Source of the DNA: Beijerinckiaceae bacterium | GTDB lineage: Bacteria; Pseudomonadota; Alphaproteobacteria; Rhizobiales; Beijerinckiaceae | Reading direction: 5' to 3' | Assembly: GCA_006514895.1 (NCBI GenBank) | Contig: VDMG01000142.1 | Coordinates: forward strand, 1 to 32,645 | Length of the DNA stretch: 32,645 bases | Shown: positions 4,048 through 31,741 of the stretch, piece by piece | Numbering within the stretch: the first letter of the stretch is position 1 | Layout: each line of letters opens with the position of its first letter | Made by a program: the position numbers and the translations under genes | The notes under the pieces: model-generated | Seen by the model: only the letters and a program-made list of their open reading frames with translations | Databases searched by the model: none | What the model was told of the DNA's origin: nothing

Positions 4048-4317
4048 GTGGAAACGAAAGCCCTCGATCATACCGAGCTTGCCAATCAGATCATCGACGT
4101 GATCGTCAAGGAAGGAATGGTTGACCGTGAGAAGGCTACCCTCGATGCGACGATTGAAAGCCTGGATTTGAAATCGATCGACATCGTGATGATCTTGACG
4201 GCCATCGAGGAAAAATTCGACGTCTATATTCCGATGGATGGTCCTTTCCATGAGGCAAAGAACATTGGCGATTTGATTGACGCCATCGCCGCCTACATCA
4301 TCAAAGAAAAAAACTGA
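4048..4317 (+). CDS. Acyl carrier protein, 89 aa (GTG start)
   Basis: ACP-like fold signature ...IESLDLKSIDIVMILTAIEEKFDVYIPM...; GGGAG upstream; directly abuts the KAS gene. Confidence 0.85.
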   Translation: METKALDHTELANQIIDVIVKEGMVDREKATLDATIESLDLKSIDIVMILTAIEEKFDVYIPMDGPFHEAKNIGDLIDAIAAYIIKEKN

Positions 4318-5541
4318 ATGACTGACGCGCGGCGAATCGTCGTCACCGGCATCGGAGCTGTTTCCGCCGCGGGAATGGGCGCACCGGCTCTCTGGCAGGC
4401 CGCGCGCGACGGCCGTTCCTGTGTCGGCGAGGCGCGCTTCGCAAGACCCTACCGGGGCCGCATAAGGATTGCCGCCCAAGTCCAGGATTTCGATCCTTCC
4501 GCCTATCTTACGGCAAGCGAATTGCCCTTCTGCGATCCCGTCACGCAATACCTGCTTGTGGCCGCCGACGAAGCGATCGGCCAGGCCGGACTTGCGTCCG
4601 CCAAACCCATGGGTCCGCGCACCGCCACCATCATCGGCACCGGCATTGGCGGCATGCACACGATTGAAAACGGGCTCTATCTGACGCTGGTTGAACAGGG
4701 TCGTCCGGATCCCTTGACGATCCCTCGTCTGATCCCGAGCGCCTGTCCCTCCCTCCTGAGCATCCGCTATGGGTCGACTGGACCATGCTTTGCTGTCTCG
4801 AGCGCCTGCTCCTCGGCGACGCAGGCGATCGGTATAGGCGTCCATCTCATCCGCTCCGGGCTCGCCGATTGCGCCATCGTCGGCGGAACCGAAGATTGTG
4901 TCTCCAATAGTGCGATGTTGGCTTGGGAAGCGCTGCGGGTGCTCACACCGGACACTTGCCGGCCTTTTTCCAAGGGCCGCAACGGCATGGTCCTCGGCGC
5001 CGGCGCCGCTGTGTTCATCCTTGAAGAAGCGGAACTGGCCGGCGCCCGGGGTGCCGAAGCACTCGTTGAAATCGCCGGCTACGGAACCTCGGCCGATGCC
5101 AAGGATCCCGTGCGGCCCGATGTTGACGGAGCCGCCGCATGCATGCGCAACGCCTTGGCCGACGCCGAGGCCGAAGCCGAAGAAATCGACTATGTCAATG
5201 CGCATGGAACCGGGACGACCGCGAACGACGTTACGGAATCAGAGGCGCTGCGGCTTGTTTTCGGCGGGCGGCTCCCGAACCTGCCGGTTTCCTCGACGAA
5301 ACCTATCCACGGCCATGCGCTGGGCGCCGCCGGCGCCCTCGAGCTTGTCGTGACGATCGGCGCCGTCCGCGACAATGTTGCGCCGCCAACCATCAACTGG
5401 CGCGAGGCGGATGCCAAATGCCCCGTCGACGCCGTGCCAAACGAGGCGCGTCCCATGCTGATCCGGACCGCCCTGACCAATTCCTTCGCTTTCGGAGGAA
5501 TTAATGCAAGCCTCATCGTCCGTCGCGCCACCGCGGCATGA
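4318..5541 (+). CDS. Beta-ketoacyl-ACP synthase (KAS II-like)
   Basis: Active-site Cys in SSACSSATQAI, His in NAHGTGTTANDVTE, His in HGHALGAAGALE. Confidence 0.93.
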   Translation: MTDARRIVVTGIGAVSAAGMGAPALWQAARDGRSCVGEARFARPYRGRIRIAAQVQDFDPSAYLTASELPFCDPVTQYLLVAADEAIGQAGLASAKPMGPRTATIIGTGIGGMHTIENGLYLTLVEQGRPDPLTIPRLIPSACPSLLSIRYGSTGPCFAVSSACSSATQAIGIGVHLIRSGLADCAIVGGTEDCVSNSAMLAWEALRVLTPDTCRPFSKGRNGMVLGAGAAVFILEEAELAGARGAEALVEIAGYGTSADAKDPVRPDVDGAAACMRNALADAEAEAEEIDYVNAHGTGTTANDVTESEALRLVFGGRLPNLPVSSTKPIHGHALGAAGALELVVTIGAVRDNVAPPTINWREADAKCPVDAVPNEARPMLIRTALTNSFAFGGINASLIVRRATAA

Positions 5542-5987
5542 CCGAGCGCGATCCTGCGCAAACTGGCGCGAGCGCCTTGGCACCGGAGCCAGGTACGGAT
5601 GCGCCGATTTGCATTCACCCGATCAGGGTCAGGACCGAGCCAGGCGAGGTCGCCAGATTTTCGCGCGAGACAGGAGGCATCGGGACCGGCGATTTCGTCC
5701 CTCTCACCTTCCCGTTCCGCTGGCTTGGGCTTCCCGCCATTCGCGGCGTGATCTTGCAATCGATCGGCGGCGAAGGCTTTCTGCCGGTTCATGAAGCGCA
5801 AAGTTTTGCCTATGAATCGAGCCTGCGGATCGACACCGATTATGTCCTCGCCGTCGAGATTGGGTCCAGTGACAAGCCGCCGCGTCTGATTGTGACAATG
5901 GTGGTTTCCACCCTGGAGGGGGAGGTTTGCGCTCGTCTCGAAACCGTATTGCGGATCGTGCGGCTCACTCAAGAGACACCATCATGA
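5538..5987 (+). CDS. MaoC-N/hotdog-type dehydratase-like protein, probably non-catalytic half
   Basis: ATGA overlap with the KAS gene; hotdog-like sequence without the DNPxH dehydratase motif. Confidence 0.6.
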   Translation: MTERDPAQTGASALAPEPGTDAPICIHPIRVRTEPGEVARFSRETGGIGTGDFVPLTFPFRWLGLPAIRGVILQSIGGEGFLPVHEAQSFAYESSLRIDTDYVLAVEIGSSDKPPRLIVTMVVSTLEGEVCARLETVLRIVRLTQETPS

Positions 5988-6433
5988 TCGCAGCCGAAGG
6001 ATCGCCGGCGCCACTGGACTGGCCAAACGCCGGAGAGGCCATCGGCGGGCAAGATTTTGGGCCTTTCGAGCGTGAAACGCTCGTGCGTTATGCGTTGGTT
6101 TCCGGCGACGACAATCCGCTGCATCTCGACCCGGAAGCAGCAAAGGCAGCCGGTCTCGCCGGGCCGCCTGTCCACGGAATGCTGATGCTCTCCTGTTTCG
6201 AGCCCTTGATCATGGGATGGCGGCGGGATCTCTTCATCACGCGGCTTTCGGCTAAGTTTTTACGGCCGCTGCTTGCCGGCGAAGGCATTCGCGTTTTGGG
6301 CCGAGTCCTGCGCAGCCAGAAAGTCCCCAAGCTTGAACTCGTTCTGCGGTTGACCGCGCGGGGTCCCAATGATGACCTTGTGATTTTGGCGGAAGCGACG
6401 GTTCTGCTCAAAAACACAAGCCCGCTTAGCTGA
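5984..6433 (+). CDS. MaoC-like (R)-specific enoyl/acyl dehydratase
   Basis: SGDDNPLHLDPEAAKAAGLAGPPVHGMLMLS hydratase-2 motif; ATGA overlap with the upstream CDS. Preferred start 5984 (listed ORF starts at 5927). Confidence 0.85.
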   Translation: MIAAEGSPAPLDWPNAGEAIGGQDFGPFERETLVRYALVSGDDNPLHLDPEAAKAAGLAGPPVHGMLMLSCFEPLIMGWRRDLFITRLSAKFLRPLLAGEGIRVLGRVLRSQKVPKLELVLRLTARGPNDDLVILAEATVLLKNTSPLS

Positions 6434-6434
6434 A

Positions 6435-7223
6435 ATGCAGCCGCGATCCATCCTTATCACCGGCGCATCTAGCGGTATTGGCCGCGCGCTCGCGCTCGTT
6501 TACGCGCGCCAGGGAATCTCCTTGTCGCTGATCGGGCGCGACCGCGAACGGCTGGACGCCGCCGCCGCCGCCGCCCGCGCGCGAGGCGCCGAAGTGAGCC
6601 TCGGCCAACTCGATGTGCGCGATCAAGATGGCATGGCGCAATGGATCGAGGCGGCCGACACGCGCCGTCCCTTCGATCTCGTCATCGCCAATGCGGGCAT
6701 CACAACCGGCCTCGCCCCTGGAGACCTCGCCGAGGACCCGCGCGCGGTTCGCGCCATAATTGGCATCAATCTTATTGGCGTCTTGAACACGGTTGAACCG
6801 TTGATCACGCCGATGTGCGCGCGCGGGAGTGGCCAAATCGCCTTCATCGGCTCGATCGCGGGGGTGCGCGGCTTGCCCTACGCGCCTTCCTATTGCGCGA
6901 CGAAGGCGGCGGTCCATGTCTATAGCGAATCCTTGCGCGGCCGCATCGAGGCGCGCGGCGTGCGTGTCAGTCTCATCATCCCCGGTTTTGTGAAGACCCC
7001 ATTGAACGATCGTATTGACGCCATGAAACCGCTCGAAATGACTGGCCGGGAGGCCGCGGTCCTCATTCAGCGCGGTCTCGAACGAGGCAAGGCAGTCATC
7101 GCTTTTCCGAGGTCTCTCTATTTGCTGGCGCGCCTCTCCCGCATCCTGCCAGTCAGGTTTGTGGACAAAGTTATGGCGCATTTCAAAGTTAACATACCGA
7201 AGACACAAGAGCGTATTCGTTAA
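6435..7223 (+). CDS. Short-chain dehydrogenase/reductase (3-ketoacyl or 3-ketosphinganine reductase-like)
   Basis: TGASSGIGRALA cofactor motif, NAG (IANAGIT), YxxxK (YCATKAAV). Confidence 0.9.
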   Translation: MQPRSILITGASSGIGRALALVYARQGISLSLIGRDRERLDAAAAAARARGAEVSLGQLDVRDQDGMAQWIEAADTRRPFDLVIANAGITTGLAPGDLAEDPRAVRAIIGINLIGVLNTVEPLITPMCARGSGQIAFIGSIAGVRGLPYAPSYCATKAAVHVYSESLRGRIEARGVRVSLIIPGFVKTPLNDRIDAMKPLEMTGREAAVLIQRGLERGKAVIAFPRSLYLLARLSRILPVRFVDKVMAHFKVNIPKTQERIR

Positions 7224-7302
7224 AGAATTCTTATGTCCTTCCTTTCCCCGGGGAAGCGCCTTTACGAGTCCTTAAAGTTAAACACCCCAATCACTCAATT
7301 TC

Positions 7303-7319
7303 TGCAACAAATTGTTGCA
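7303..7319. promoter_or_regulatory. 17-bp palindrome TGCAACAA-A-TTGTTGCA, possible operator
   Basis: Perfect 8-bp arms with a 1-nt centre in the AT-rich gap upstream of the GT2 gene. Confidence 0.35.
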
Positions 7320-7571
7320 ATTTGTTTGTTGTCGCAACCGCGCTTTTGGGCTTCAAAGCTTGAGTAGTGTCCATTCTTACGGCTCGTGCGAAGGGTCACG
7401 TTGCTTGCTCAACCGGCCGCGCGGCCCTCGCATCAAACAGTCCGCGCGGAAAGCCCGGTTCAGGCGGATTAAAGACGCGTTCAGAAGTTCGAGGCGTTCC
7501 TAACGCATTCAAAGACCCAGCCATGGGCGAGGGTAGTAGACCGGAAGTGACCGTGTCACGGGGGGTGGCCA

Positions 7572-8897
7572 TTGAGTTTTCTGGAACTCTTCAGAATCGT
7601 GTGCGAGACCGGCTTCCTTGCCGCCTTTTGCGGGCTCCTCTTCGTCGGCGGAGGTTTTGTGATTCTGATCGGGATCAATATTTTCGAACAAGCGACGGGC
7701 AGGCTTCTCGGCAAGCGGCTTTCGACTTCAATTCTGAGCGAAGCCGACCTCCCGCATGTTCTGGTGCAAATCCCGGTTTTCAATGAACCCGCGATGGTCG
7801 CGTACTGCTTACGGTCCGCCGCGGCCCTAGAGTGGCCCCGCGCGAAACTGCATATTCAGCTTCTCGATGACAGCACCGACAGGACGACCGCGATTGCCAG
7901 TGCCGTCGTCCGCGAATTGCGCGACCAAGGCTACAATATTGCGCATCTTCACCGGGCGGCGCGGCGCGGCTATAAAGCCGGCGCCTTGGCAGCTGGCCTC
8001 GCTCAGTCGAATGCCTCCTTCGTCGCCATTCTCGACGCCGATTTCCGGCCGCCGGCAAATTGGCTGCGGGCGGTCGTCCCGGCTTTGATCGCCGATCCAA
8101 GCGCGAGCTTCGTGCAATCGCGCTGCGAATTTGCGAACTACCGGACGAATTGGCTGACCCGCGCGCAAGGCCTTATGTTCGATGCGCATTTCGTGATGGA
8201 ACAGGCGACGCGCTTTCGGGCCGGCTGGCTGTTTCAATTCAACGGCACCGGAGGGGTTTGGCGCCGTGCGGCGATCGAGGCGGCCGGTAGCTGGTTGGGC
8301 TATTCGCTCTGCGAGGATCTCGACCTTACCATTCGCGCCGAAATCGCAGGATGGCACGGAATTTTCGCGATGGAGCCGGCCGTACCCGGACTTGTCCCCG
8401 AAAAGGTTTCCCATTGGCAGGTGCAACAAAGGCGTTGGTCCAATGGCTTTGTGCAAGTCGCCCGCAAGATGCTTGGCGAGGTCTGGACGGCCGAATGGTC
8501 CGTTTGGCGCAAGCTGTCGGCGAGTTTCCTTATCCTCATCCAGACGTTTTATCCGTGCGTCGCGCTCGCCTGCCTTTGCTTGGCTCTATGCACGATCATC
8601 CGGGGCGGCGATCTCGCCCCTTACGTGCCAGTTATCGCGACGATCGCGGCCTTGATCCTGTTCATCGGCATTGGCTTGACGCTCGTTCCCTATGTCATTT
8701 TGCGGCGAGGCTCGTTTAGGCGCTATCTCGCGACCCTCGCTTCGCTGATCCCCTTGATGATCTATATCAGCATCTCCAACGCGCCATCCATCCTGAAAAC
8801 CGTTTTCGGTGCCTCCGGCACGTGGAAGCGCACGCCGAAGACGACACCATTTCTGGACGATTTGCCGGTGGCCGAGCAGCTCAACGAGGCCGGATAA
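7572..8897 (+). CDS. Family 2 glycosyltransferase, CslA/ceramide-glycosyltransferase-like, membrane
   Basis: QIPVFNE, LLDDSTD, ILDADFRPP, CEDLDLTIRAE, QQRRW motif, C-terminal TM helices; apparent TTG start. Confidence 0.85.
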   Translation: MSFLELFRIVCETGFLAAFCGLLFVGGGFVILIGINIFEQATGRLLGKRLSTSILSEADLPHVLVQIPVFNEPAMVAYCLRSAAALEWPRAKLHIQLLDDSTDRTTAIASAVVRELRDQGYNIAHLHRAARRGYKAGALAAGLAQSNASFVAILDADFRPPANWLRAVVPALIADPSASFVQSRCEFANYRTNWLTRAQGLMFDAHFVMEQATRFRAGWLFQFNGTGGVWRRAAIEAAGSWLGYSLCEDLDLTIRAEIAGWHGIFAMEPAVPGLVPEKVSHWQVQQRRWSNGFVQVARKMLGEVWTAEWSVWRKLSASFLILIQTFYPCVALACLCLALCTIIRGGDLAPYVPVIATIAALILFIGIGLTLVPYVILRRGSFRRYLATLASLIPLMIYISISNAPSILKTVFGASGTWKRTPKTTPFLDDLPVAEQLNEAG

Positions 8898-9912
8898 TCG
8901 ACCTCGCGGCAGCGCTGCGATCGACCCGCGTGTACAAGGTGAATTGCGGGTCGCAGATGAATTTGAGCAACAGCCCGCTTAATGATTTATGCGTCTTCAG
9001 ATTGGCGTAAAATTCCGGTGCCATCTCTTTCAGCCGCGGCAGCCGTGACCAGGGCACGTCCGGAAAATCATGATGCTCGTTGTGATAGCCGATGTTGAGC
9101 GCGACAAGGTTCAAGGGACCGTAATAATCGAAGGTTTCCTGAGCCGGATCTTGTGTAAAATGCTCCTGGAGCCAGCGTGCGCCGAGCGGATGCAAGCCTC
9201 CGACCGAAAACCAGAAAGACGCGAAAAAATAGAGAAGCGCATTCGGTCCGAAGAACATTAATATGGCGAGATCGTAGAGGAACACGCAGCCGCCATTGAT
9301 GAATGTCCACCGGCTCCACATCGGTACCGAGCCCTTCAGCCTGGCAAGACGGGTGAGCTGAAAAACCGGAAAAAGGAACATCCAAGCCGCCTTGCCGGCC
9401 GCGCTATTGCCAAACAGACGCGCTTCCCAGCGGCTTGGAAGATCGGCGTCATAATCGTAATCTCCGAGATGCGAATGATGCTTCATATGGTAACAGCGAA
9501 ATCCCATCGCGGTCGGAAAGCTGTTCGGCAAATCGGCGAGAATCGCGACCCATTTGTTCATGAAATTCGCTTTGAAGATGCAATTGTGGGTCGCGTCGTG
9601 GATAACGACGAACATTGCGTGATTGGCGAAGGCGCCTATGCAAAAAGCGGCAATGAGGGCCGCCCACCAATAATCGATGCCTAGAGCGCCGAGACCCGCC
9701 GCGATCAAGGTCTGCCCGGCGACCACCGCGACGGTGATCGCCGCGGTCCTCGAGTCGTGGCCAATCAGAGTGGCGGCTTCGGGATGCGCCGCCAGTATCG
9801 CGCGCCGCCGCACGGGATGCGGACGCGGTTGAACGGTGGGAATGAAACCATCACGGTCCGCGCTGGATTCGACGCGGCTGACCTGCCCGCGTTGAAAAGC
9901 TTGCAAGCTCAT
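8881..9912 (-). CDS. Fatty acid desaturase resembling sphingolipid Delta4-desaturase (DEGS1/DES1-like)
   Basis: Histidine boxes HDATH, HMKHH, NEHHDFP. N-terminal QPRPHPVRRRAILAAHPEAATLI and C-terminal YYGPLNLVALNIGYHNEHHDFPDVPWSRLPRLKEMAPEFYANLKTHKS closely match my recollection of eukaryotic DEGS1. Confidence 0.88.
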   Translation of the reverse strand: MSLQAFQRGQVSRVESSADRDGFIPTVQPRPHPVRRRAILAAHPEAATLIGHDSRTAAITVAVVAGQTLIAAGLGALGIDYWWAALIAAFCIGAFANHAMFVVIHDATHNCIFKANFMNKWVAILADLPNSFPTAMGFRCYHMKHHSHLGDYDYDADLPSRWEARLFGNSAAGKAAWMFLFPVFQLTRLARLKGSVPMWSRWTFINGGCVFLYDLAILMFFGPNALLYFFASFWFSVGGLHPLGARWLQEHFTQDPAQETFDYYGPLNLVALNIGYHNEHHDFPDVPWSRLPRLKEMAPEFYANLKTHKSLSGLLLKFICDPQFTLYTRVDRSAAARSIIRPR

Positions 9913-9986
9913 GCGTGGATCGTCCTTTCATCCTGTCAGAGCCGGTGCGTCGCAGTGCCGGACGGATCAGATATAGCGATAACGGA

Positions 9987-11141
9987 TCAAGCCGCGAGAC
10001 TTTTCTCATAGACGCGGTGGACCTTGTCGATTCGCGCCCCGGAGAGCTCGATCGGACGGCGCATGCCAAAATTATTCTCCAAAACCCAGCTGAATTCGAC
10101 GTGTCCGATTGAACTCGATTTGCTGCGCTGGCGCATTTCCTCGATGAAAGCCAGAATGACGGCGCCGCCCGCGGCCTTGCGGTGCAAGGCGCGGCGAATG
10201 CCAAAGAGCGCGAGCCGCCCGGACTTGAATGCGTGGTTCCTGATCCGCGATATGACGCGTGGCAGTCCGAAAGGAAACAGACGGCCACCGAGATCGGCGG
10301 TCACCTCATGCAGGTTCGGCAAGACAACGCCGAAGGCTTGTGGCACGCCGTCGAGCTCGATCATAAAGCCGCCTTCCGGGGGCATCACCAATTTAAGCCC
10401 GTCGGCGCTCGACATGAATTCGGCGAGCGTAAAGGGAACAAAGCCCCAATTTTCGCTCCAGGCATCGTTGAATATATCGACGATGATCTCCGCTTCCTTG
10501 CCGATGTTCTTAAGATCGAGAGTTCTGATGTTGAGCCTCTTGCGCCATTCGGGCCGCTCCATAATGCTTGGACTGGCCTGCCGGTCTTGCTCGCCGACGT
10601 CGTATCGGTAGGAAATGAGGTCGCGCGCTTTCGTATAGCCTTGGCGCTCTAAGGAATCGACCAAATAAGGCGGATTCCAAGGCATGAACACCATGGGCGC
10701 GGCTTCGAACCCCTGGACAAGCAGCCCGGTCTCGCTGTTCACGGAGGGCGAGAACGGTCCATGCACGAGCGTGGCGCCGCGTTGGCGCAGCCAATCCTCG
10801 GCGGCCCGCATCAAACCAGCGGTGACCCCGTCATCGTCAATTGCATCGAGACAACCAAATTGTGCCCGCGACGCGCCGAGCGGTGCATAAGCTTCATCAT
10901 AGATCTGGGCGAGAATCCGCCCGGCAAGCTTGCCATTCTTGCGGGCGAGCCAGGCTTGCGATTGGACAAGCTTGAAATGCGGATTGAGCTTGCCCGCGAA
11001 CATGGTCCATCGCTCGGCATCGAGTGGCGGCGCGAAGCCCGGCTGATTCTGATAGAGAAGCCGGGGGAGCCGGCAAAAAGAAAGAAAGTTTCGCAGCCCG
11101 TTCGCCGGAATGATCTCGATCCTGTCCCTGTTCCCGCTCAT
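9987..11141 (-). CDS. GNAT-fold acyltransferase-like protein; candidate bacterial ceramide synthase
   Basis: Long GNAT-like protein (RNRDRIEIIPANG...HGPFSPSVNSETGLLVQGFE...MPWNPPYLVDSLERQGYTKA) in sphingolipid gene context. Preferred ATG at 11141 (listed ORF starts at 11213). Confidence 0.55.
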   Translation of the reverse strand: MSGNRDRIEIIPANGLRNFLSFCRLPRLLYQNQPGFAPPLDAERWTMFAGKLNPHFKLVQSQAWLARKNGKLAGRILAQIYDEAYAPLGASRAQFGCLDAIDDDGVTAGLMRAAEDWLRQRGATLVHGPFSPSVNSETGLLVQGFEAAPMVFMPWNPPYLVDSLERQGYTKARDLISYRYDVGEQDRQASPSIMERPEWRKRLNIRTLDLKNIGKEAEIIVDIFNDAWSENWGFVPFTLAEFMSSADGLKLVMPPEGGFMIELDGVPQAFGVVLPNLHEVTADLGGRLFPFGLPRVISRIRNHAFKSGRLALFGIRRALHRKAAGGAVILAFIEEMRQRSKSSSIGHVEFSWVLENNFGMRRPIELSGARIDKVHRVYEKSLAA

Positions 11142-11258
11142 CGGCCTAACCTTTTTTGTCAAGTGCGGTGGCGCCGCGCCGCGGTCCCGGGTCGCATATG
11201 GAGCAAAGTGCATCGTGGCCAGGGACGGGAATGCGCCAGACGGAAAATGGCCCCGCCG

Positions 11259-12485
11259 TCAGCCAGCCGCACTCAGCGAACGGGCCGGTGCTTCACATTG
11301 GGTTTCCCGATTCGCCAAAAGATCGGTCACGCCCTTAATCTCCGCCTCGGTGTGCAGCGCCGAAAGGAAAAACCGCAGACGCGGCTGGTCTTTCGGCACT
11401 CCAATTTGAATGATCGGCGGAACGTAATAGCCGTTGTCCATCAAATGGCTGGAGGCAGCCAGAGTCTCAAGACTGTCGGAGAAAAGGATCGGGACGACAC
11501 CGCGCCCGATGGCAGGTCCCGTATCGAGCCCCGCGTCATGCGCGAGATCGACGAAAAGTTCGGCATTTTGGCGCAGCCGCTCAATGCGCCAAGTCTCTTG
11601 CTGCATCAATTGCAGGGCAGTCTCCGCCGCCGCCGTTATAACAGGCGATAGGCCGACGCTATAGACAAATCCCGGCAGCGTATAGCGCAACCAGGAGATC
11701 ACCGATTCCTTGCCGGCGACGAAACCGCCGCAAGACGCCAGGGTTTTCGATAAGGTGCCGATAATGAGGTCGATTTGCTGCGGATCGACGCTGGAATGTT
11801 CCCAAAGGCCGCGTCCCTTGCTCCCGAGGACACCGATCGAATGCGCCTCGTCGATCAACAGCCAAGCCCTGCGCCTCTCCTTGATCTCGACAAGGGAAAC
11901 AAGATCGGCGATGTCGCCATCCATGCTGTAGAGACCCTCGGCGACAATAAGAGCGTTACGGTAATTGCCGCGCCTTTCACGCAAAAGAAAATCGAGGTGG
12001 TCAAGATCGTTGTGGCGGAAAATGATGGTTTCGGCAGTCGTTGCCTTGGCGCCGCTAACGATGCTGTTATGGGACAGTTCATCAATGAACAACACGTCGT
12101 GCGATCCAAGAATATGCGATATCGTCGTCACATTGGTGAGATAGCCGCTGACCAGGGTTAGAGCCGCCTCGACCCCGAGGAATTTGGCGAGCCCGGCCTC
12201 CAAATGACGATGCGTGGATCGCTCGCCACCGACGAGGCGGGAGCCGAGCGCGCCGATTCCCAATGTGTCCAGTGCCGCCGCCGCCGCCGCCTTGATCATG
12301 GGGTGGGAGGCGAGCCCCAAGTAATCGTAGTTGGCGAAACTTACGAAATGGCGGCCATTGATCTCGACTTCACGCCGCAAGGTGTCGATCGGCGCGAAAA
12401 ATGGGTCACCGAGGTCAAGATAAGCCTTCCCCGCGAGCCGGAAGCGCTTCGTTGCATAATCGGCGAGGCTTTGGGTCTTTTGCAC
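11259..12485 (-). CDS. spt: Alpha-oxoamine synthase, probable serine palmitoyltransferase
   Basis: PLP motifs SFANYDYLGLASHP, GSRLVGGERSTHRHLE, DELSHNSIVSG, AEGLYSMDGDIADL, LIDEAHSIGVLG, PLP-Lys motif GTLSKTLASCGGF. SPT rather than KBL/BioF is inferred from context. Confidence 0.8.
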   Translation of the reverse strand: MQKTQSLADYATKRFRLAGKAYLDLGDPFFAPIDTLRREVEINGRHFVSFANYDYLGLASHPMIKAAAAAALDTLGIGALGSRLVGGERSTHRHLEAGLAKFLGVEAALTLVSGYLTNVTTISHILGSHDVLFIDELSHNSIVSGAKATTAETIIFRHNDLDHLDFLLRERRGNYRNALIVAEGLYSMDGDIADLVSLVEIKERRRAWLLIDEAHSIGVLGSKGRGLWEHSSVDPQQIDLIIGTLSKTLASCGGFVAGKESVISWLRYTLPGFVYSVGLSPVITAAAETALQLMQQETWRIERLRQNAELFVDLAHDAGLDTGPAIGRGVVPILFSDSLETLAASSHLMDNGYYVPPIIQIGVPKDQPRLRFFLSALHTEAEIKGVTDLLANRETQCEAPARSLSAAG

Positions 12486-12889
12486 TTGCTGATCGGCGGT
12501 TCAGATGGGTTCACGAGACGATTGGAAAGTACGGCATCTTGTTGGCTGCGACTTGGTTGCCGCTTCCCGGCCGCATTGGTTGCAACTTGAGCATATCGTT
12601 GGCATAGCATCATGCGCCGGAAGGAGCAAAAGGGGATCGCCGGGGAGTGTCATAAGACCGGTGCAAATCTCCGCTCATAAATGAAAAAGATGATTTGTAT
12701 CATAGGTTTATCGCGTATTTTCAATTCCGGTTACAAAACGTAACAAAGTCAAGTTCACGGACCGGCAAGCTTCGTGCCCGCGCCTTGCGAATCAACGACT
12801 TTATGACGGGCGGGTGACTTTGACCTGGACAATTCGCCGGCGGCGGCCGCTGGCAGGCCGGCGACGGGGGCTAAAAGCACTCTAGGGAT

Positions 12890-13684
12890 TCACCGCAAGG
12901 GGGGAGATCCAGGGCCGGCGTCCCGGCCCGCTCGGCGAGGTCCGGTTCGGCCGCTCGCGCCATGGACGCGAGCATTGAGGCGATGGCGGATGCGGCCTGT
13001 CCGGCGATGACCTTGCGATTTTCTCCGCGGCTTGCCAAAGGCGAGATCGCACCGGATCGGCTCGCCCTTGAGGAGCGACCAGAGGTGCGGAAGCAAGGTC
13101 GCGTCGCCGAGCCATGCCGCCGCGGGCGATGAATAGCGGATAGCGACAGGTTGCACGCAAACCGTCTCGATACCGCTCGCCGTGGCGAGAAGATCGCGCG
13201 CGGCGGCGAAATGCGAGCTATGAAACTTGCGAAGCGCCAAACCGTCGCCGGTCGTGGCCTCAGGGAAAAGTAGCATGGGACGCCCGCCGAGCATTCTTTG
13301 CGCCATCGCCGCGTTGGTGCCGGGGATCGTGCGGCGCCGCTCACGATCCACGAAAACCGTTTCCTGCAGGCGCGCGAAAGTGGAAGCGACCGGCCATGTT
13401 CCGACCTCTCGCTTGGCGAGGAAACAGACCGGCTCGACGCTGCAAAGCACCAGGATGTCAAGCCAAGACACATGATTTGCGGCAATGAGACGAGGCTCCC
13501 GCGGCGGCGGTACGCACCCCGAGAAAACATCCAAGCGGAGCAAGGCGGCGAGCGTCCGCCCGAACGCGACCGGAAGCCACAGGCGCAGCGGCCAGCGCCG
13601 CCGCAACGCGACCCATTGCAAGGGAGCGAGACAGAAAAACAAGAGCAAGGCAAGAACGACTGCCGTGGCGCGGAGATAAGCCAT
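12890..13684 (-). CDS. plsC: 1-acylglycerol-3-phosphate acyltransferase-like (PlsC family)
   Basis: NHVSWLDILVL (NHxxxxD) and LLFPEATTGDG (FPEGT-like). Preferred ATG at 13684 (listed ORF starts at 13750). Confidence 0.85.
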   Translation of the reverse strand: MAYLRATAVVLALLLFFCLAPLQWVALRRRWPLRLWLPVAFGRTLAALLRLDVFSGCVPPPREPRLIAANHVSWLDILVLCSVEPVCFLAKREVGTWPVASTFARLQETVFVDRERRRTIPGTNAAMAQRMLGGRPMLLFPEATTGDGLALRKFHSSHFAAARDLLATASGIETVCVQPVAIRYSSPAAAWLGDATLLPHLWSLLKGEPIRCDLAFGKPRRKSQGHRRTGRIRHRLNARVHGASGRTGPRRAGRDAGPGSPPLR

Positions 13685-14012
13685 GATTCGCCGCAGGTTG
13701 GCCAGCTTGGCCGGGTTGCGATTCGCGCCTTTTACAAGCGCCAGTTGCATTTTGATGACAACCGCCGCGAGAGCATTTTCAAGCGAAGTGGATACCGGTT
13801 CGCGTCAACAAAATGCGATAAATAGAAAAAGCCTTCACTCTTCCCCGCAGCAAAGACATGCTTGAACGAAATAACACTCGAAGAACCGCTGATTCAATTT
13901 GGAAACGGCATAAGGTCGTCGAGGTCGGCGAAGCGCTCCGCCTCGCGGCGTCATGCCGGACGGCGGCGCCGATCCGGCATTCCAGTCACTGAACTGACTC
14001 CCGAATTACCAT

Positions 14013-15080
14013 TCATGGGTTCAGTGGTTTGATAACCTCGTCGCCCTTTATCGACGTTGTGACGATGTCCTTTGCGCCAACATTCATCTTCATGAGATCC
14101 ATCATTCGGATCTGGCTGTTCTCATAAGTGCGGAAATAGTACTGCTTTGCCTTAAGATCGGCGGCAGAGGTCACTGCGTATAATCGGCCAGGATATTGCC
14201 GTGCGCATCCTTCTCGTGTTCGCGGGCCGCGCCCTTTGGAATGTCGAATTGGTTCAGATATAGAACGCCTCAAGAACGGCGCCATTCCCGGTTTCTGACG
14301 GCAGGACCGACTGGCTGAACGCGACGGCGCGAACGAAGCGCGACGGCGGCGTGAAGTCGCCCGGCAGCCCAAGCATCCCCGAGCCTTGGCCGAACGGCTC
14401 GAGCTTGATAGAGCCCAGTTTGACCGGGGGAACGTTGGTCATCGAAAAATTCACATAGTTGCGCAGATTGGTCATGTGCCAATCGAACGCCGGCGAGTTG
14501 GTGAATACGCCCAGCGGGTTGTCATAGACGTTGAGCTTGCCGCCGACATACTCGATCACGATGCTCTTGCCGGATGCGTCGTGCACGATGTAATGAGCCT
14601 CCGGAGCAAAGCCCCATCCCTCGAACACGGATGAAGCGACGACGATGTTGCCGATGTTGGCCTTGACCTCCGCGACGCTGGCAAAATTCTCCAGAATCCA
14701 TGAACCCAATTCCCATTGGGCGATGGTCTTGCCCGCATCGGCCGCGGTGTAGGGCATATATCCGGCGGAGCCAGGGAAGTCCGGCGGCCAGACCTTTCTC
14801 ATTCAACCCGTCAAACAGGATCGGCAACCCCACGCCATTAAGCCCGACGCTGGCGTATTTCGCCTTCCGCTTGAGCCCTTTCTTTCCGTCGGGCGTGGTT
14901 CCTGTCCGCGCATAGCCGCGCGGAACCATGATCAGGTCGGAGTGAATATAAATGGCAAATTCCATCGTTCGCGCGTGAACGACGGTGCCCCGCTCAAGGC
15001 TTATCTGCGGGCCGGGGCGAAATTCGGCGATGGCGCGGTGATCGATGCGCAATCTCGAACAACCGACGTCTTCACGATCA
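14013..15080 (-). pseudogene. Choloylglycine hydrolase / penicillin acylase-like (Ntn hydrolase) pseudogene
   Basis: Continuous homology-like path across frames: GTVVHARTMEFAIYIHSDLIMVPRGYA...LNEKGLAAGL | FPGSAGYMPYTAADAGKTIAQWELG...AVLEAFYI | LNQFDIPKGAAREHEKDAHGNILADYTQ | TSAADLKAKQYYFRTYENSQIRMMDLMKMN. At least three frame changes. Confidence 0.85.
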
Positions 15081-15471
15081 TGCCGCTCGCCGATTTGGAA
15101 GAGCGCTATAGAGACTATTACGGCGGCCCGATGGAAATGCCGGACAGTTACGTCGCGTGAATGGTGCGAAAATGTAAAAGTCTGGATTTGATCCATCGGT
15201 CAATGGCAGATTTCTTCGTTCATTTCATGGGCCAAGCATGATCGGCGCGGCGGGTTCGATCCTGGCAAGGACGCAAACCAAACTCGCCGCCATGCAATGA
15301 ATGGCAAATTACGATTTTCCGCGACAGCGATTGATATCTCAAATCCAGTCTCTTACAGCTTAAAAGCGCCGCAAATCCGCGGCTTTCGTGGGCGATGGTT
15401 CGGCCTTGCTAAGGCTCGTCCAAAGCGGCAATCTCAGCCTGGAAATCTGGTCAGCGGTGGATGCCGAATAA

Positions 15472-17019
15472 ATGGTCTATGTAGCGCTGAAACCAAGTTA
15501 CGATGCGGATGTGATCATCGCCGGTGCCGGGCCGGCGGGGGCTGCGGCAGCGTGCCATCTGACGCGTGCGGGAGCGTCGGTTATACTTCTCGATCGTATG
15601 ACCTTTCCACGCGATAAGGTGTGCGGCGATTTTGTCGGCCCATCTGCCCTGATCGAGCTGGACTCTCTCGGCATATCGGAAATGGACGGGTTCGCGCGGA
15701 CCAATATCGCGCGTCGCGCTGCGCTTTATATCGACGGCGAAGCGCTGATCGCGAGGCCTTTTCCGATGATCGAGGGCATGCCTTCCTTTGGCCGGGTGAT
15801 TCCACGGCTCGCGCTCGACAATTTCATCGTCGATGCCGCGCGGAGCGCCGGTGCCCGGGTAATGGAGGGGTACTCACTAGCGGGTTTCGCAGCCGGCGGT
15901 GATGCGGTTGCCGTGGAGGCGGCGAACTCGAAGGGCCACTTCACGTTGCGCTGCCGCCAGCTGATCGGTGCCGACGGCGGCAGTTCGACGGTGGCGCGAC
16001 TCATGCGCGGATCGGCGCCGCCGCGGCGCGACCGGTTCATTGCCTCACGGGCCTACTTCGCCAACGTCGAGGGGCCAGACGATCAGCTCGATGTCTATTT
16101 CGGCCACAGCTCCTTTCCGGGTTACTGCTGGTTGTTCCCCACCGGCAATGGCGAGGCGAATGTCGGGCTCGGCATGGCGCTCGAAACGTGGCCCGCCCAC
16201 AACCGGACTCCCGCTGATATGTTGCGCCGCCTTATGCGCGACGATGCGGCCCTCGCGGCGCGCCTGCGCAATGCGAGCCTGCGCGGCAAGATCGTGGGCT
16301 GGCCATTGATAACCTACAACCATCGGCTCCCGATCGTGTCCGGCCGCGTCATGCTGATCGGCGACGCAGCGGGTCTGATCAATCCGCTCAACGGCGAGGG
16401 CATCCAATACGCGCTGCTGAGTGCCCGCTGGGCGGCCGAGACGCTGGCACCATGTCTGCGCGAGGATGATTTTTCCGCGCGCGCGCTTGCGCCCTTTGCG
16501 GCGCGCGTCGAGAGCGAAATGCGCTACGACATGGCGCTGTCCCGGCTTATTGTGCAGCTCATCGGCAACCGGGCGCTCACCCCGCTCTGGATCGGGGCGT
16601 CGAAAATTATTGCGGTGCGCGCCCACAAGGATGCCAACTATGCGAGCACTGTATCGGGAATCTTCGCCGGGCTGTTACCGGCGCGCGATGCATTGAAGGT
16701 GGTTGGCGGCACCGTCGGCCAGGCGGTCCGGTCGCTCGCCAGCAAGGCTGTGACTACGGCGCTCAGCGGCCCGCGCGGATGGGCAGGCCCCGGCGTTGGC
16801 ACCGCGCAGGGGAGATTCCAGCTGGCGAGCGATGCGGCAAAGGATCCCGCGGGCTTCGCCGAATGGTTGATAGGCGCCGCGGCCTGCGCGATAGAACTCG
16901 GTTCGCAGGCATCAAGGAACGCAATCGCGGGCAAGCCGAAAGGGACGGTTGTTTCTGCTCAAAAACTATCCGGTCTGGGAATCGGTTTGCCGGGCAAGAT
17001 CGCGACTGACGATTTTTGA
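15472..17019 (+). CDS. FAD-dependent oxidoreductase, geranylgeranyl reductase family
   Basis: DVIIAGAGPAGAAAACHL dinucleotide-binding motif, DKVCGDFVGP, VMLIGDAAGLINPLNGEGIQYAL. Confidence 0.9.
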   Translation: MVYVALKPSYDADVIIAGAGPAGAAAACHLTRAGASVILLDRMTFPRDKVCGDFVGPSALIELDSLGISEMDGFARTNIARRAALYIDGEALIARPFPMIEGMPSFGRVIPRLALDNFIVDAARSAGARVMEGYSLAGFAAGGDAVAVEAANSKGHFTLRCRQLIGADGGSSTVARLMRGSAPPRRDRFIASRAYFANVEGPDDQLDVYFGHSSFPGYCWLFPTGNGEANVGLGMALETWPAHNRTPADMLRRLMRDDAALAARLRNASLRGKIVGWPLITYNHRLPIVSGRVMLIGDAAGLINPLNGEGIQYALLSARWAAETLAPCLREDDFSARALAPFAARVESEMRYDMALSRLIVQLIGNRALTPLWIGASKIIAVRAHKDANYASTVSGIFAGLLPARDALKVVGGTVGQAVRSLASKAVTTALSGPRGWAGPGVGTAQGRFQLASDAAKDPAGFAEWLIGAAACAIELGSQASRNAIAGKPKGTVVSAQKLSGLGIGLPGKIATDDF

Positions 17020-17114: not shown

Positions 17115-17763
17115 TCACGGCCTGCCGAAAACAAGCATGAAATTATTGGCGGGCAAGGCTAGCTGCTGCGCCAGGACGATGCCATGTTCGTTTGCAGCCT
17201 TTTCAACATCCCTGACATCCTTCAGTCCCCATTCCGGAGCATTCGCAGCGCGCAGCTCTCGATCGAAAGCCTCGTTGGATGGCGCCGTGTAATTCCCATC
17301 GACTTTGAACGGCCCGTAAATCGCCAGGAAGCCGGTTTGATTCAAGACCCGCGCGGCGATTTGCGCCACGCTTTCCGCAATAGCGATGGGCGCGACATGA
17401 AACAGATTGATTGCGAAGACAACATCGTAGCGATTTGTCTTGGCGTCCGGCCAAGTCTCCGGCTTGGCGAGGTCTATGTGGACGGGGTCCCAGACATTGG
17501 CATTGGCGTACTCGGCTTGCATTTGCCGGATCGCCTCGAACATACCCTTTATCGTAATCGGAGGGTTGAAACCGGATGTGCGGAAAATGCGGCGCGAAAT
17601 AGTTGATGTGCGCGCCGCTGCCGCTCGCGAGTTCGAGAGCGTCGCCAGACGGTGGAAAGAGCTGCTTGAACACGTCCAAAATGGGGTCGCGGTTGCGCTT
17701 TGCGGCCCAATCCACGTAGGCGCTAAGGGGACAATGGTCGATAACGGACTGCACGCTGGACAT
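17115..17763 (-). pseudogene. DUF938 SAM-dependent methyltransferase, single frameshift
   Basis: N-terminal frame (CPLSAYVDWAAKRNRDPILDVFKQLFPPSGDALELASGSGAHINYFAPHFPHIRFQPSDYDKG) joins by a 1-nt shift to MFEAIRQMQAEYANANVWDPVHIDLAKPETWP...VFAINLFHVAPIAIAESVAQ...NNFMLVFGRP. Confidence 0.8.
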
Positions 17764-17880
17764 GAGGCACTCCATCTAGCGCCTAAACAATATCATCATC
17801 CGAGATATTACTATCCGAACTTGGGCACGAGTGCCAAACCAACCATGCCGTGGATTGGCTCTGATCTTGTGCCAGCTCGG

Positions 17881-26456: not shown

Positions 26457-27328
26457 ATGAGAAAAATAAACCGTCTATCCGCGCGCGCAGTCGCAACCTT
26501 AACTAAAGTCGAGGCGTCACGCCGATGGCGGCGACCTCTATTTGAGGGTCGATAAGACCGGCGCGAAACGCTGGACGTTCATGTACGAACAGGACGGCAG
26601 ACAGCGTGAAGCCGGGCTCGGTGGCGTCAATTCCGTTCCACTTGCCAAGGCTCGGGTCCTCGCTGCCGAGTTCCGCGAAGCCATCGCCGCTGGCAGGGAC
26701 CCGGTCGCCGAGCGGAAGGCTGCTCGTCAGGCACAGCGGAGCCGTAAGACGTTCGGTCAGTGCGATAGCCGACGTTCGTTCCGGCGTTCCTGACATGCCT
26801 CCATACCCGGCAGTCCGTTGCGGCTCTAGCTTTGGAATTTGCAGTCTTGACAGTAGCGGGCACCAATGAAGTGCTCGGCGCAAAATGGGGCGAGATCGAC
26901 GCCGAAAATGGTGTCTGGAGGGTTCCGGCTTGTCGCATGAAGGGCGGGCGCGCGCATCGCGTCCCGTTATCCCGGCGCGCCGCGGCCATTCTGGCAGAAC
27001 TCGCCAAGGCCAAGGCCGGGGATTTCATCTTTCCTGGTCAGCAACCGGGCCGACATATTTCAAGCCTCGAAATAATCATGGCTCGCATGAAGGTCGACGC
27101 GACGGTTCACGGTTTTAGGTCAAGCTTCTCTGATTGGGCGTCAGAGACGACCAACTTCCCGCGGGAAGTTATCGAACATGCCTGGCTCACCTTGTTGGTA
27201 GCAACGTCGAGCGGAGCTATCGGCGCGGTGATATCCTCGAAAAGCGCAGGATTGTCCTACAAGCTTGGAGCAGCTTTTGCGATCTGTCCGATCGCGGCAA
27301 TGTGGTTCCGATCGCGCGGATAGGTTAA
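26457..27328 (+). pseudogene. Decayed tyrosine integrase (DUF4102/P4-type)
   Basis: MRKINRLSARAVATLTKVEAS | HADGGDLYLRVDKTGAKRWTFMYEQ...REAIAAGRDPVAERKAARQAQ...KTFGQC | (central part missing) LEFAVLTVAGTNEVLGAKWGEIDAENGVWRVPACRMKGGRAHRVPL...VHGFRSSFSDWASETTNFPREVIEHA | AHLVGSNVERSYRRGDILEKRRIVLQAW, spread over different frames. Confidence 0.85.
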
Positions 27329-27573
27329 CATAGCTACGCGGGGCTAGGCTTAGCGGTCCGAATGTCGAGAGCATCCCTCGATTGCCCCGTGCTTCCTTTT
27401 GGGTGAGAGCAGGATGCGCTCGAAGTGGCCGCCATTTAATCCGCCTATCATCGGGCATTTTTGCGCCAGCGGCTCTTGCGGGAGCAATACCCGCTCACTC
27501 TTAACGCCCTTTATTTCCGGTTTTGGACGCCGGGAAAAGGCCACTTTCTCGACGAAGTCCTTAAAAACATCCT

Positions 27574-28161
27574 TTGTGGTCGCTTCGCGTTGTCGCACGC
27601 TGGGCAGCCCCGTGGCGTGACAGAGAAGCATTTGTCAACGCAGCCGGGATTAAAGCGTGCTGCATTCGGTATGCGAAGGATGGCACCGCCTGCCTGGTGC
27701 CAAAAAAATTGGTCGTCTTTGACAACGAGGACGAGATTCAAACCCTGCTCGATTCGGGGCAAGTCCCTTATACAGACCTCCGATTCGCGGAAGCGGAAGC
27801 CGCCCAACTATGGCCGGTGCGCCGTGGCGCGAATGGAGACGAATGGCGAGGAACGGAAATCGTCGACGATTGGATCATTAGGGATGAGACAGAACGCGCC
27901 GATTGGCTGCGTTGGATAAAACCCGCCGACCGGCACCTTACCTATGATGAGGTGCACACACTGCTCGATAAAGAGCTGCGCGCGCGATTGGAAGCTAGAC
28001 CAGACAACCGCGCTGGAGCTGGTCAAGGCCATCGATCCGAGCTGGACAAGGGCGGCGGTAGAAACCGTCCTCGTGGATAACCGGCAAACGCGGCGCAGGA
28101 CGCCCAACCAAAAAAGCCTATGAGGAATTAATTCGCAAAAATAATTCTCCAGAAAGTTGAC
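27574..28161 (+). pseudogene. Unknown gene with probable C-terminal frameshifts
   Basis: ORF to about 28000, then a coherent continuation in another frame (KLDQTTALELVKAIDPSWTRAAVETVLVDNRQT) and a third (GAGRPTKKAYEELIRKNNSPES*). Confidence 0.45.
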
Positions 28162-28210
28162 CCTTGCGAATTTGCGAATAATGCAAGCCCCAACCTTGTG
28201 TGCTTCATGG

Positions 28211-28237
28211 CGAGTTACCGAAATTAAAGGTAACTCG
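28211..28237. promoter_or_regulatory. Perfect 9-bp inverted repeat CGAGTTACC-N9-GGTAACTCG abutting a start codon
   Basis: Read directly; right arm ends 1 nt before the ATG at 28239. Confidence 0.55.
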
Positions 28238-28238
28238 A

Positions 28239-28490
28239 ATGACCCTCCCAAACCCCAACCGTACCGGCCGCAAGCGCCGGGTTCCTATCGATCCGTCGAT
28301 CCTCGCCGTCGCTGAAACCCTCCGCGTCAATGATGCCGTCCAGATCAGCGGACTCAGTCGCAGCTCCCTTTATAAAGGTCTGGCCGCAAGTCACCTTCAA
28401 GGAAATCATTTACCTTGGATTCCGCAAACGGGACCTCGTTATCAACCGCACCGATCATCCCCTGATTGGGCGCCTGGCAGGAGCCTCCTG
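28239..28490 (+). CDS. Small putative HTH/excisionase-like protein, possibly degraded
   Basis: MTLPNPNRTGRKRRVPIDPSILAVAETLRVNDAVQISGLSRSSLYK is HTH-like at the N-terminus. The downstream part is ambiguous between frames; the end coordinate is an estimate. Confidence 0.35.
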
Positions 28491-29000
28491 ATGAACCCGT
28501 CCTTTTATTCCACAATTCTCGACCTTCCATTCGACGAGATCAATTTGGTCGACACGGAATATCGTTCCAGCCCGGGCAACCGGCCCGAACCGGTCTGTCT
28601 CATCCGTTGGGAACTCAGGAGGGGCTTAAAGCAGAGGTTCTGGATCAACGAGCTCGGCGCGGAGCAGCCCTATTCCATCGGCAAAGATGCGGCGGCCGAG
28701 CTCAGCTTCCACAAGGCTATGGGTTGGCCCCTGCCTAAGAACAATCTTGATCTCTTCATTGAGCACCGCAATGCCACGAACGGGCGCAATCTCCCGCAAG
28801 GAAACACTCATAGGCGCCCTCATCCTTCGCCGCCTCGATAGCATTGGCTCTGAGACCAAAGAGCTGATGCGCGATCTCATCCTGCGTGGCGGGAGATTGC
28901 GGCGATCCTCGATTATTGTGAAAGCGATGTCGCAGCCTTGCTCCGCCTTCTCACCGTGCGCGCCTGCAGCCGCCGGAGGGACATGCACTCATCTATTTTG
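28491..29000 (+). pseudogene. Fragment of phage-type DNA polymerase (family A-like, exonuclease region), frameshifted
   Basis: MNPSFYSTILDLPFDEINLVDTEYRSSPGNRPEPVCLIRWELRRGLKQRFWINELGAEQPYSI...FHKAMGWPLPKNNLDLFIEHRNATNG | LIGALILRRLDSIGSETKELMRDLILRGG | EIAAILDYCESDVAALLRLL; three frames in succession, no polymerase domain visible. Confidence 0.65.
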
Positions 29001-29093: not shown

Positions 29094-30499
29094 GTTGCGC
29101 CGCCTAAAAGCCGCGGAACGTGACGGCGGGTTGACCGAAAAGCGCCAAGTTCTTGCCCAACAGCACAGGCGCGGCAATACCGATCAAAAATGCGAATCCG
29201 AGCTTGGCAGATCGCCACAAATTGCGCCAAGAGCTGTACGATAGCGGGCTTGGTGCCAAGCCCAACGGCAACGGCAACGACAATGCCAGTGGCGCATGGC
29301 AGGAAAAGAGGCGGAAATTAGCCCCGCATGACGGCCATGGCGGCCGAGATCATCGGAAACGATTTTCACGGCCATTGCCGCCAGTCGCATGCGATTGATC
29401 TGCACTTGCGCGAACGGCCAAACGCGCCCCGTCTTGCAAGTGGCCTTACTATTTCGATTTTTTCGCAGGGATGACATCGCCGAGCTGCAATGCCGGAACG
29501 CGTCAACCTGTAATGCGGTTAACCGGGGTCCACACAAAATATTGAAGATCGGGAGGGGTCGCGGGCATTCGGAAAAAGGTGCGAGCGGCGAGTGTGCAGT
29601 ACATGCTGCGCCGCGCATGCGCACCGCCAATAGGAGCAGAACAGATGCCTGGTGCAACTGATTACACGGCAACTTACACGGCAACAAACTTGCTGAACTA
29701 CATCACCGGGCAGCTCGCCGGACGGCGTACCCCGCAGACGCCTGCCGGGTCGAAAAAGGATCGACCGCCGCGGTTTCGGCGGGCAAGCATTGCCCTGGAG
29801 ACGACGCCGCCGCTTCACGTCGCGCGGGTCATGGTGTACGGAATCCACTTGTAATTGCTGAGTGCAGCCCGCCAATCTCTTCGATGCGCCTGACACGTCC
29901 GGGCCGGAGTTCCAGCTTATAGGCGGTGGCGCGGTGGCGGCCTGAACCTCGCGATATATAGACCTTTTGGGAAGGTGGGCTACGGCGCCCGTCTCCGCTG
30001 TTGCGCACCTTTTTCCGAATGCCGGAGACCATGAGTTCCAGAGCAAACCGAACTGACGGGGACGTCTAAACGTACCCCCTTGTATTACAAGATAATTTAA
30101 GGAGGGACGAGCTGGCGCGCAACCCGTACCGGCCAGTATGGGGTCTCCAAGTACCTTTCATGGACCCAAGGACCTCGGCCACGGCCGGGCATTTGAAAGT
30201 GGGCGGCGCCGCGCAGCTCTTCCGCCATTTGGATGGCACCGTCGTGTGGCAGCGGTGACCGCTGGCAGGCTTTGGGCGGTTGCCTGTACAACCCACACTG
30301 CCAATGAAGGCCGTCAGCATGGCGCCCTGGCGATAAGCACAAAAAAGTGCATATAAGTCAACCAAACGTGTAACCAGTATCTTATACTGAATAAAGCTCG
30401 AAGTTAATTTTGTATATTATACTTATTGCTCGAAGTTTCCCCCAACATAATAAAGCGCTTGTATTGACACGGAAATGCAGTGAGCTGCATCCTGCGTTC

Positions 30500-30823
30500 A
30501 TGATCTCCGCCCAACAGCTTCACACCGGCCGCATTTCGCTCGGCTTGAACGTCGCACAATTGGCGAAGCTTGCCGGTGTCGCGCCAAACTCGATTTGGGC
30601 GATCGAACGGGGTGCAGATTTTAAAGCCTCGACGATGCAGGCGCTCGAAAGCACATTAAGGGACGCGGGGGTTCTGTTCGCCCCCGGCCGCGTCGGCGTC
30701 AAGATGCATTGGATTCAAGGCCGACCCGAAAGCGCCGAGATAAGGGCTGGCGTCTTGGGGATTATCAACGCTGAGCGGAAGAGCCGCGGCCAGGCGCCCT
30801 ACGCCGACATGGAGGGCGCATGA
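30500..30823 (+). CDS. XRE-type HTH transcriptional regulator
   Basis: SLGLNVAQLAKLAGVAPNSIWAIERGADFKASTMQALESTLRDAGVLF. ATG at 30500 is preferred over the listed 30410. Confidence 0.75.
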   Translation: MISAQQLHTGRISLGLNVAQLAKLAGVAPNSIWAIERGADFKASTMQALESTLRDAGVLFAPGRVGVKMHWIQGRPESAEIRAGVLGIINAERKSRGQAPYADMEGA

Positions 30824-31736: not shown

Positions 31737-31741
31737 ACAAC

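Follow-up and report, generated by a model that had tools for sequence, protein, structure and literature searches.

A locus in a 32,645-nt stretch of DNA from a Beijerinckiaceae bacterium (contig VDMG01000142.1; hereafter the window, in which all gene coordinates are given) probably serves to make a glycosylated membrane lipid of the ceramide type, through a variant of the pathway by which bacteria synthesize ceramides. The predicted product that best fits its genes is a Delta4-unsaturated or C4-hydroxylated glycosylceramide. The ten genes that a first-pass annotation of this DNA had noted are all present as open frames at the positions below, and most of their families were assigned by profile search with hidden Markov models.

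4048..4317, + strand: dedicated acyl carrier protein (ACP); Pfam PP-binding, 7e-5; 67-99% identity in relatives
4318..5541, + strand: FabF-type beta-ketoacyl-ACP synthase (KAS); TIGR03150, 390 bits; Cys-His-His triad
5538..5987, + strand: hotdog protein 1, HadA-like; no Pfam match, assigned from a structure model
5984..6433, + strand: hotdog protein 2, MaoC/HadB-like 3-hydroxyacyl-ACP dehydratase; MaoC_dehydratas, 5e-16; HadB, 8e-9
6435..7223, + strand: classical short-chain dehydrogenase/reductase (SDR); adh_short, 5e-41
7572..8897, + strand: membrane glycosyltransferase of the GT2 family; Glyco_tranf_2_3, 3.5e-22
8881..9912, - strand: DEGS-family membrane desaturase; FA_desaturase, 4e-30; Lipid_DES, 8e-8
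9987..11213, - strand: GNAT protein, YghO/CC_1154-family N-acyltransferase; homology to YghO of E. coli BL21
11259..12485, - strand: alpha-oxoamine synthase (AOS); Aminotran_1_2, 2e-45; pyridoxal phosphate lysine in GTLSK
12890..13750, - strand: PlsC/OlsA-like acyltransferase; OlsA model, 195 bits, cut-off 300

The genes form two modules, ACP-KAS-hotdog-hotdog-SDR-GT2 on the + strand and AOS-GNAT-desaturase on the - strand. The junctions from the ACP through the KAS, hotdog 1 and hotdog 2 to the SDR are TGA-ATG, ATGA, ATGA, and a 1-nt gap, respectively; the first five + strand genes are translationally coupled and therefore form an operon, as had been proposed. The GT2 gene follows the SDR gene after 348 nt.

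The GNAT protein is assigned by homology as a bacterial ceramide synthase (CerS) of the YghO/CC_1154 family. It is 38% identical to YghO of E. coli BL21 over 375 amino acids (E 1e-86; 100% in hhalign), and YghO is the counterpart of Caulobacter CC_1154, which is needed for dihydroceramide synthesis (Padilla-Gomez et al., PMC9386255). In a profile search, 12 of 13 Alphaproteobacterial genomes with a canonical serine palmitoyltransferase (SPT) contained a strong homologue (4e-70 to 9e-107), mostly 1-10 kb away from the SPT gene, and none was found in the three Alphaproteobacterial genomes without an SPT match. The ceramide-type pathway with an N-acylation step that was suggested in the first-pass annotation is supported by this relationship. 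A sequence search of the PDB returned no relatives of the GNAT protein or of the desaturase.

The desaturase, which had been described as DEGS1-like, passes the Pfam cut-off for sphingolipid Delta4-desaturases (Lipid_DES, 32.0 bits, cut-off 23) as well as that of FA_desaturase (105.9 bits, cut-off 29.7). Its three histidine boxes (HDATH at 105, HMKHH at 142, and HNEHH at 277) are intact and are invariant across alignment A1. A Foldseek comparison of its structure model (predicted local distance difference test [pLDDT] score of 73) with viral structures returned only distant, general desaturases. When one genome per species was scanned, at least 375 relatives were found in bacteria; the best 80 of them come from Beijerinckiaceae, Verrucomicrobia, Acidobacteria, Bacteroidetes, Ignavibacteria, and others. 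The nearest named loci are those of a Hyphomicrobiales metagenome-assembled genome, Methylocapsa acidiphila, M. aurea, M. palsarum, and Methylocella tundrae, and for this reason the host of the window (genome G000, 3.03 Mb) is placed in the Methylocapsa/Methylocella group of the Beijerinckiaceae. Where loci of Verrucomicrobia and Acidobacteria have sufficient flanking sequence, the desaturase gene is followed by an AOS gene and usually also by a CerS relative; among the best 80 relatives, those from Bacteroidetes and Ignavibacteria showed no linked AOS. DEGS-like genes adjoin AOS genes in Verrucomicrobia, Acidobacteria, and other Alphaproteobacteria, and the pairing is therefore not confined to this locus.

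We lean toward a Delta4-desaturase rather than a 4-hydroxylase. That the enzyme is instead a C4-hydroxylase, which would form phytoceramide, or an acyl desaturase is a somewhat unlikely but substantial alternative: eukaryotic DEGS2 is described as bifunctional (PMC10140171), and the activities are inseparable by sequence, whereas the Lipid_DES domain scores above its cut-off. The repeated linkage to AOS and CerS genes in several phyla speaks against a glycerolipid substrate, an argument that leaves hydroxylation unaffected.

A different arrangement was observed in L105 (9992-15022) and similar Verrucomicrobia and Acidobacteria loci, where the order is desaturase, fatty acid hydroxylase, AOS, CDP-alcohol transferase, and GNAT protein (a CerS relative). 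These clusters look like a separate locus for a hydroxylated phosphosphingolipid.

The inheritance of the genes was surveyed in 149 genomes of the family, from 43 genera. As defined by a threshold of E up to 1e-60, the desaturase is present in 36 of these genomes (9 genera), and the GT2 gene is present in exactly the same 36. An AOS of the window type (E up to 1e-197) accompanies the desaturase in 35 of them; the exception is G281 (76% complete), which retains only an AOS fragment at a contig end, and the best AOS matches outside the 36 are 2e-163 and 1e-154. The naive probabilities of identical desaturase and GT2 sets are 2e-35 by genomes and 2e-9 by genera, but shared ancestry makes both figures too small, and we therefore rely on the pattern rather than on the probabilities. 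Conservation of the gene neighbourhood, which the first-pass annotation had proposed as a check, was found: the order AOS-GNAT-desaturase is kept in nearly all family members with the desaturase, and the ACP-KAS-hotdog-hotdog-SDR-GT2 block adjoins it in some relatives and lies elsewhere in others. This conserved order, together with the perfect co-occurrence of the desaturase and GT2 genes, excludes a chance assembly of genes.

The GT2 protein carries the motifs DDS, DAD, ED, and QxxRW. In Methylocystis-like relatives the + strand module reads ACP-KAS-hotdog-hotdog-SDR-GT21-GT2, in which the additional gene matches Pfam Glyco_transf_21 (2e-44); in Methylocapsa acidiphila the GT21 gene adjoins the desaturase. 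GT21 is the family of ceramide glucosyltransferases. At a threshold of E up to 1e-86, 34 of the 36 desaturase genomes carry a GT21 of this type. None of the other 113 does; their best GT21 matches are about 30% identical and presumably of the hopanoid type. Linked glycosyltransferases thus accompany the locus, in support of the first-pass annotation, and the GT2 enzyme likely acts on ceramide.

The ACP, the KAS, and the hotdog pair make up the dedicated acyl-ACP cassette that had been recognized in the first-pass annotation. Ser43 in the KSI motif of the ACP is the likely phosphopantetheine site; the ACP aligns with AcpR of BL21 over only 29 amino acids (34% identity), and such proteins are too short for an orthology call. 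The score of the KAS lies under the FabF equivalog cut-off, and its identity is 37.6% to E. coli FabF versus 53-55% to the KAS proteins that adjoin SPT or CerS genes in L192 and L203. The AlphaFold model of hotdog 1 (pLDDT 86) matches an R-hydratase and Mycobacterium tuberculosis HadAB best in Foldseek (E about 1e-5), and this protein is probably the non-catalytic half of a dehydratase. Hotdog 2 carries the catalytic GDxNPxH motif as GDDNPLH. With two hotdog proteins and the hydratase motif in one of them, the pair looks like a HadAB-type dehydratase, which presumably dimerizes.

As longest-open-frame gene calls were unreliable in the GC-rich comparison loci, homology-based calls were used there. 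In L203 (genome G212), a hotdog-KAS-ACP-CerS run points in one direction and an AOS-SDR pair with a 4-nt overlap in the other; no desaturase or GT2 match was found. L204, likewise a compact cluster that lacks the desaturase and GT2 genes, has a CerS-ACP-KAS-hotdog run. In L192 (genome G054, of another family), a hotdog-hotdog-KAS-ACP run, an LptF-like permease gene, and a CerS gene lie beside an SPT gene that belongs to the canonical clade and, at 467 bits, narrowly misses the cut-off of 500; the cassette is therefore tied to a near-canonical SPT too. The two modules of the window could still be unrelated neighbours, in which case the ACP-KAS-hotdog-SDR-GT2 genes would make a separate glycolipid, such as a glycosyl-diacylglycerol, or a special acyl group, and the AOS, CerS, and desaturase would make an unglycosylated ceramide. 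The modules are physically apart in many genomes, and genus g171 has the KAS cassette without the desaturase; nevertheless, we consider this improbable in view of the exact co-occurrence of the desaturase and GT2 genes across the survey and of the fact that ACP-KAS-hotdog genes are clustered with CerS and AOS genes in L203 and stand beside an SPT gene in L192. The cassette of genus g171 (L185 and L207; genome G271) is of the form ACP-KAS-hotdog-hotdog, with a KAS identity of 60%, and the genus also lacks the GT2 gene.

The SDR had been counted as a member of the chain-building module. It is 40-47% identical to SDRs that adjoin AOS and CerS genes in L140, L142, L143, and L203, whereas its identity to E. 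coli FabG is only 31%. Since related SDRs adjoin AOS and CerS genes in genomes without the KAS cassette, the window SDR more likely belongs to the sphingoid pathway, where it would reduce the 3-keto group of the backbone as a 3-ketosphinganine or 3-oxoceramide reductase, a role we regard as likely. A pure fatty acid synthase (FAS) ketoreductase is weakened as a candidate by the same relatives, although the SDR may serve in both. AOS, SDR, and CerS genes also stand together in L187 (genome G174), a compact cluster without the desaturase and GT2 genes, and L143 has SDR, CerS, and AOS genes with an LptF-like permease gene and a desaturase gene. Genes for LptF/LptG-like permeases and an ABC ATPase adjoin AOS and CerS genes in L140, L142, L143, and L192, as they do in the Caulobacter and BL21 clusters; none was seen in the window.

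Several observations weigh against the glycosylceramide assignment. The AOS scores below the cut-off of every NCBIfam SPT model (292 of 500, 290 of 640, and 210 of 670 bits), and its highest NCBIfam score, also below cut-off, is with the BioF model (343 bits). In the AOS tree it falls into a clade of its own with AOS genes of other Alphaproteobacteria (support 100/99). The window genome, nominally 99.7% complete, lacks a GT21 of the type described above, which may reflect the draft assembly or a loss, and members of the Pfam GT2 and GT21 families also glycosylate diacylglycerol and hopanoids. Moreover, the product is predicted from gene sequences, from which neither the serine specificity of the AOS nor the Delta4 activity of the desaturase can be read.

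The first-pass annotation had called the AOS SPT-like and had named a grouping with KBL, BioF, or ALAS as the result that would speak against this. The canonical SPT clade, which comprises sequences from Alphaproteobacteria, BL21, and Sphingobacterium (support 98/93), excludes the window AOS, and a control SPT from L050 reaches 627 bits against the cut-off of 500. On the other hand, a joint clade of the AOS and the SPTs is compatible with the data (approximately unbiased test, p 0.267), and the top PDB match in a sequence search is an SPT. The SPT grouping is accordingly neither proven nor refuted. A housekeeping BioF or ALAS is ruled out because genes for both enzymes, scoring above cut-off (BioF, 434 bits; ALAS, 632 bits), lie elsewhere in the genome. 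The best score being that of BioF, a second BioF or a KBL-type enzyme in a mixed island without lipid function was considered as well, but the score is below the BioF cut-off, the genome has the BioF and ALAS just mentioned, and the AOS is constantly linked to CerS and desaturase genes, so that this is extremely improbable.

From its context we infer that the AOS works as an SPT, and, given a ceramide-type pathway, serine is probably its substrate. Pseudomonas MYb115 offers a precedent, a non-canonical AOS whose SPT activity is proven and which is supplied by a dedicated polyketide synthase (PKS; PMC12134224). The separate clade and the sub-threshold SPT scores would also fit an enzyme that uses glycine, alanine, or a longer amino acid and thereby yields a ceramide analogue of the 1-deoxy type or another amino-lipid, and 1-deoxyceramides have been reported from the Black Sea (PMC11334938). 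This is quite unlikely, as the co-inherited glycosyltransferases need a hydroxyl group, most simply the serine-derived C1-OH, the CerS and DEGS-type enzymes fit normal ceramides, and the same cassette stands beside a canonical-clade SPT in L192.

In the proposed pathway to a glycosylceramide, the FabF-type KAS and the HadAB-like pair would lengthen a chain carried by the dedicated ACP; the ketoreductase for this would be either the local one or a housekeeping enzyme, and the enoyl reductase a housekeeping one. The AOS would join an amino acid, most likely serine, to an acyl thioester to form a 3-ketosphinganine, and the YghO-type CerS would N-acylate either before or after reduction of the 3-keto group by the SDR. 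The DEGS-type desaturase would then introduce either a 4,5 double bond or a hydroxyl group at C4, and the GT2 enzyme would add a sugar, together with GT21 in most relatives. The cassette may feed either the sphingoid base or the N-acyl chain, or it may feed both; in L203 and L204 it stands in an operon-like run with CerS, and in L192 it adjoins SPT. The substrates, the order of the steps, the position of the double bond, the sugar acceptor, and the chain fed by the cassette are all inferred. The first-pass interpretation is supported with respect to the ceramide-type pathway, the DEGS-family desaturase, the acyl-ACP cassette, and the linked glycosyltransferases, and is modified with respect to the SPT grouping, the role of the SDR, and the inclusion of PlsC.

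The locus was compared with known sphingolipid systems. Like those of Caulobacter crescentus and E. coli BL21 (aasR, cerR, acpR, spt, and cerS/yghO; PMC9386255, PMC11324152), it has a pyridoxal phosphate-dependent AOS, a dedicated ACP, a YghO/CC_1154-type N-acyltransferase, and partial clustering. The window AOS belongs to another clade, however; the acyl-ACP synthetase AasR and the epimerase-type reductase CerR are missing, and the ACP-KAS-HadAB-like cassette, the classical SDR, the DEGS-type desaturase, and the GT2 enzyme are added. With BL21 queries, CerR and AasR were found in all eight canonical genomes tested (1e-35 to 1e-53 and 1e-139 to 1e-162, respectively). In the window genome the best CerR match was 6.7e-13, in the range of generic epimerases, and AasR had no match at 1e-20; 16 window-type or related genomes, including G054, gave only weak generic matches to both. 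Good homologues are thus absent, and on the economical reading the SDR appears to take the place of CerR, and loading by AasR appears to give way to chain building by the KAS-dehydratase cassette on the dedicated ACP.

The sgaAB(C) system of Pseudomonas MYb115 (PMC12134224) shares with the window a non-canonical AOS, its own chain-building machinery, and a separate 3-ketodihydrosphingosine reductase, but uses an iterative type I PKS, whereas the window has discrete FAS-II-like enzymes, a bacterial CerS, a desaturase, and glycosyltransferases. The step logic of the eukaryotic pathway (SPT, KDSR, CerS, DEGS1, and UGCG) is common to both, as are a DEGS-family desaturase, a classical SDR, and, in most relatives of the window, GT21; the window CerS is of the unrelated bacterial type, the acyl donor is apparently ACP-bound, and the AOS is of the single-subunit type and of another clade. 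The Verrucomicrobia and Acidobacteria clusters (L105 and others) also combine a DEGS-type desaturase, an AOS, and a CerS relative, but their AOS genes form a third clade and are accompanied by the fatty acid hydroxylase and CDP-alcohol transferase; with the window proteins as queries, no linked KAS cassette or GT2 gene was found in them.

A broader proposal is that the locus represents a further bacterial ceramide route, in which an own-clade AOS was independently recruited as an SPT, a FAS-II-like cassette serves instead of AasR and a classical SDR instead of CerR, and a DEGS-family enzyme leads to Delta4-unsaturated glycosylceramides in methanotrophs and other phyla. We advance it tentatively and hold it, taken as a whole, to be rather doubtful. 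The gene set looks complete, and its carriers are soil and wetland bacteria, many of which are methanotrophs. Sphingolipids are predicted in the methanotroph genera Methylocella, Methylocapsa, and Methylocystis. In the open-access literature we found no report of sphingolipids in these genera, no description of this ACP-KAS-hotdog cassette, and no report of a bacterial sphingolipid desaturase or DEGS-type enzyme. The locus and its relatives provide strong candidates both for a bacterial sphingolipid Delta4-desaturase and for a second, non-homologous means of feeding and reducing the sphingoid backbone, and also a new system in which the step order and acyl donor of bacterial ceramide synthesis can be tested. 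Desaturated sphingoid bases are often treated as eukaryotic markers, which makes the prediction relevant to environmental lipid data; the broader proposal, if true, would also pose the question of a bacterial origin of eukaryotic DEGS.

The PlsC/OlsA-like gene, which the first-pass annotation had included in the locus, adjoins the AOS gene only in the closest relatives. As it is not conserved beyond them, it was rejected as a pathway member and is probably an OlsA-type neighbour. Upstream of it on the - strand, a gene of the choloylglycine-hydrolase family (14013-15196; CBAH, 1e-45) is split across overlapping frames as if frameshifted, and a homologue occupies the same position in relatives. 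A methyltransferase-like gene at 17115-17775 (- strand) is likewise spread over two overlapping frames, and a second frameshift or an assembly error nearby is suspected. Between the two, on the + strand (15472-17019), is a gene for a geranylgeranyl-reductase-type FAD-dependent reductase (FAD_binding_3, 3e-22; GGR_cat, 3e-9). A truncated integrase-like open reading frame, a helix-turn-helix open reading frame, and small unknown ones, noted by eye at 26832-28841 and 30410-32077, are possibly the remains of a decayed integrated element.

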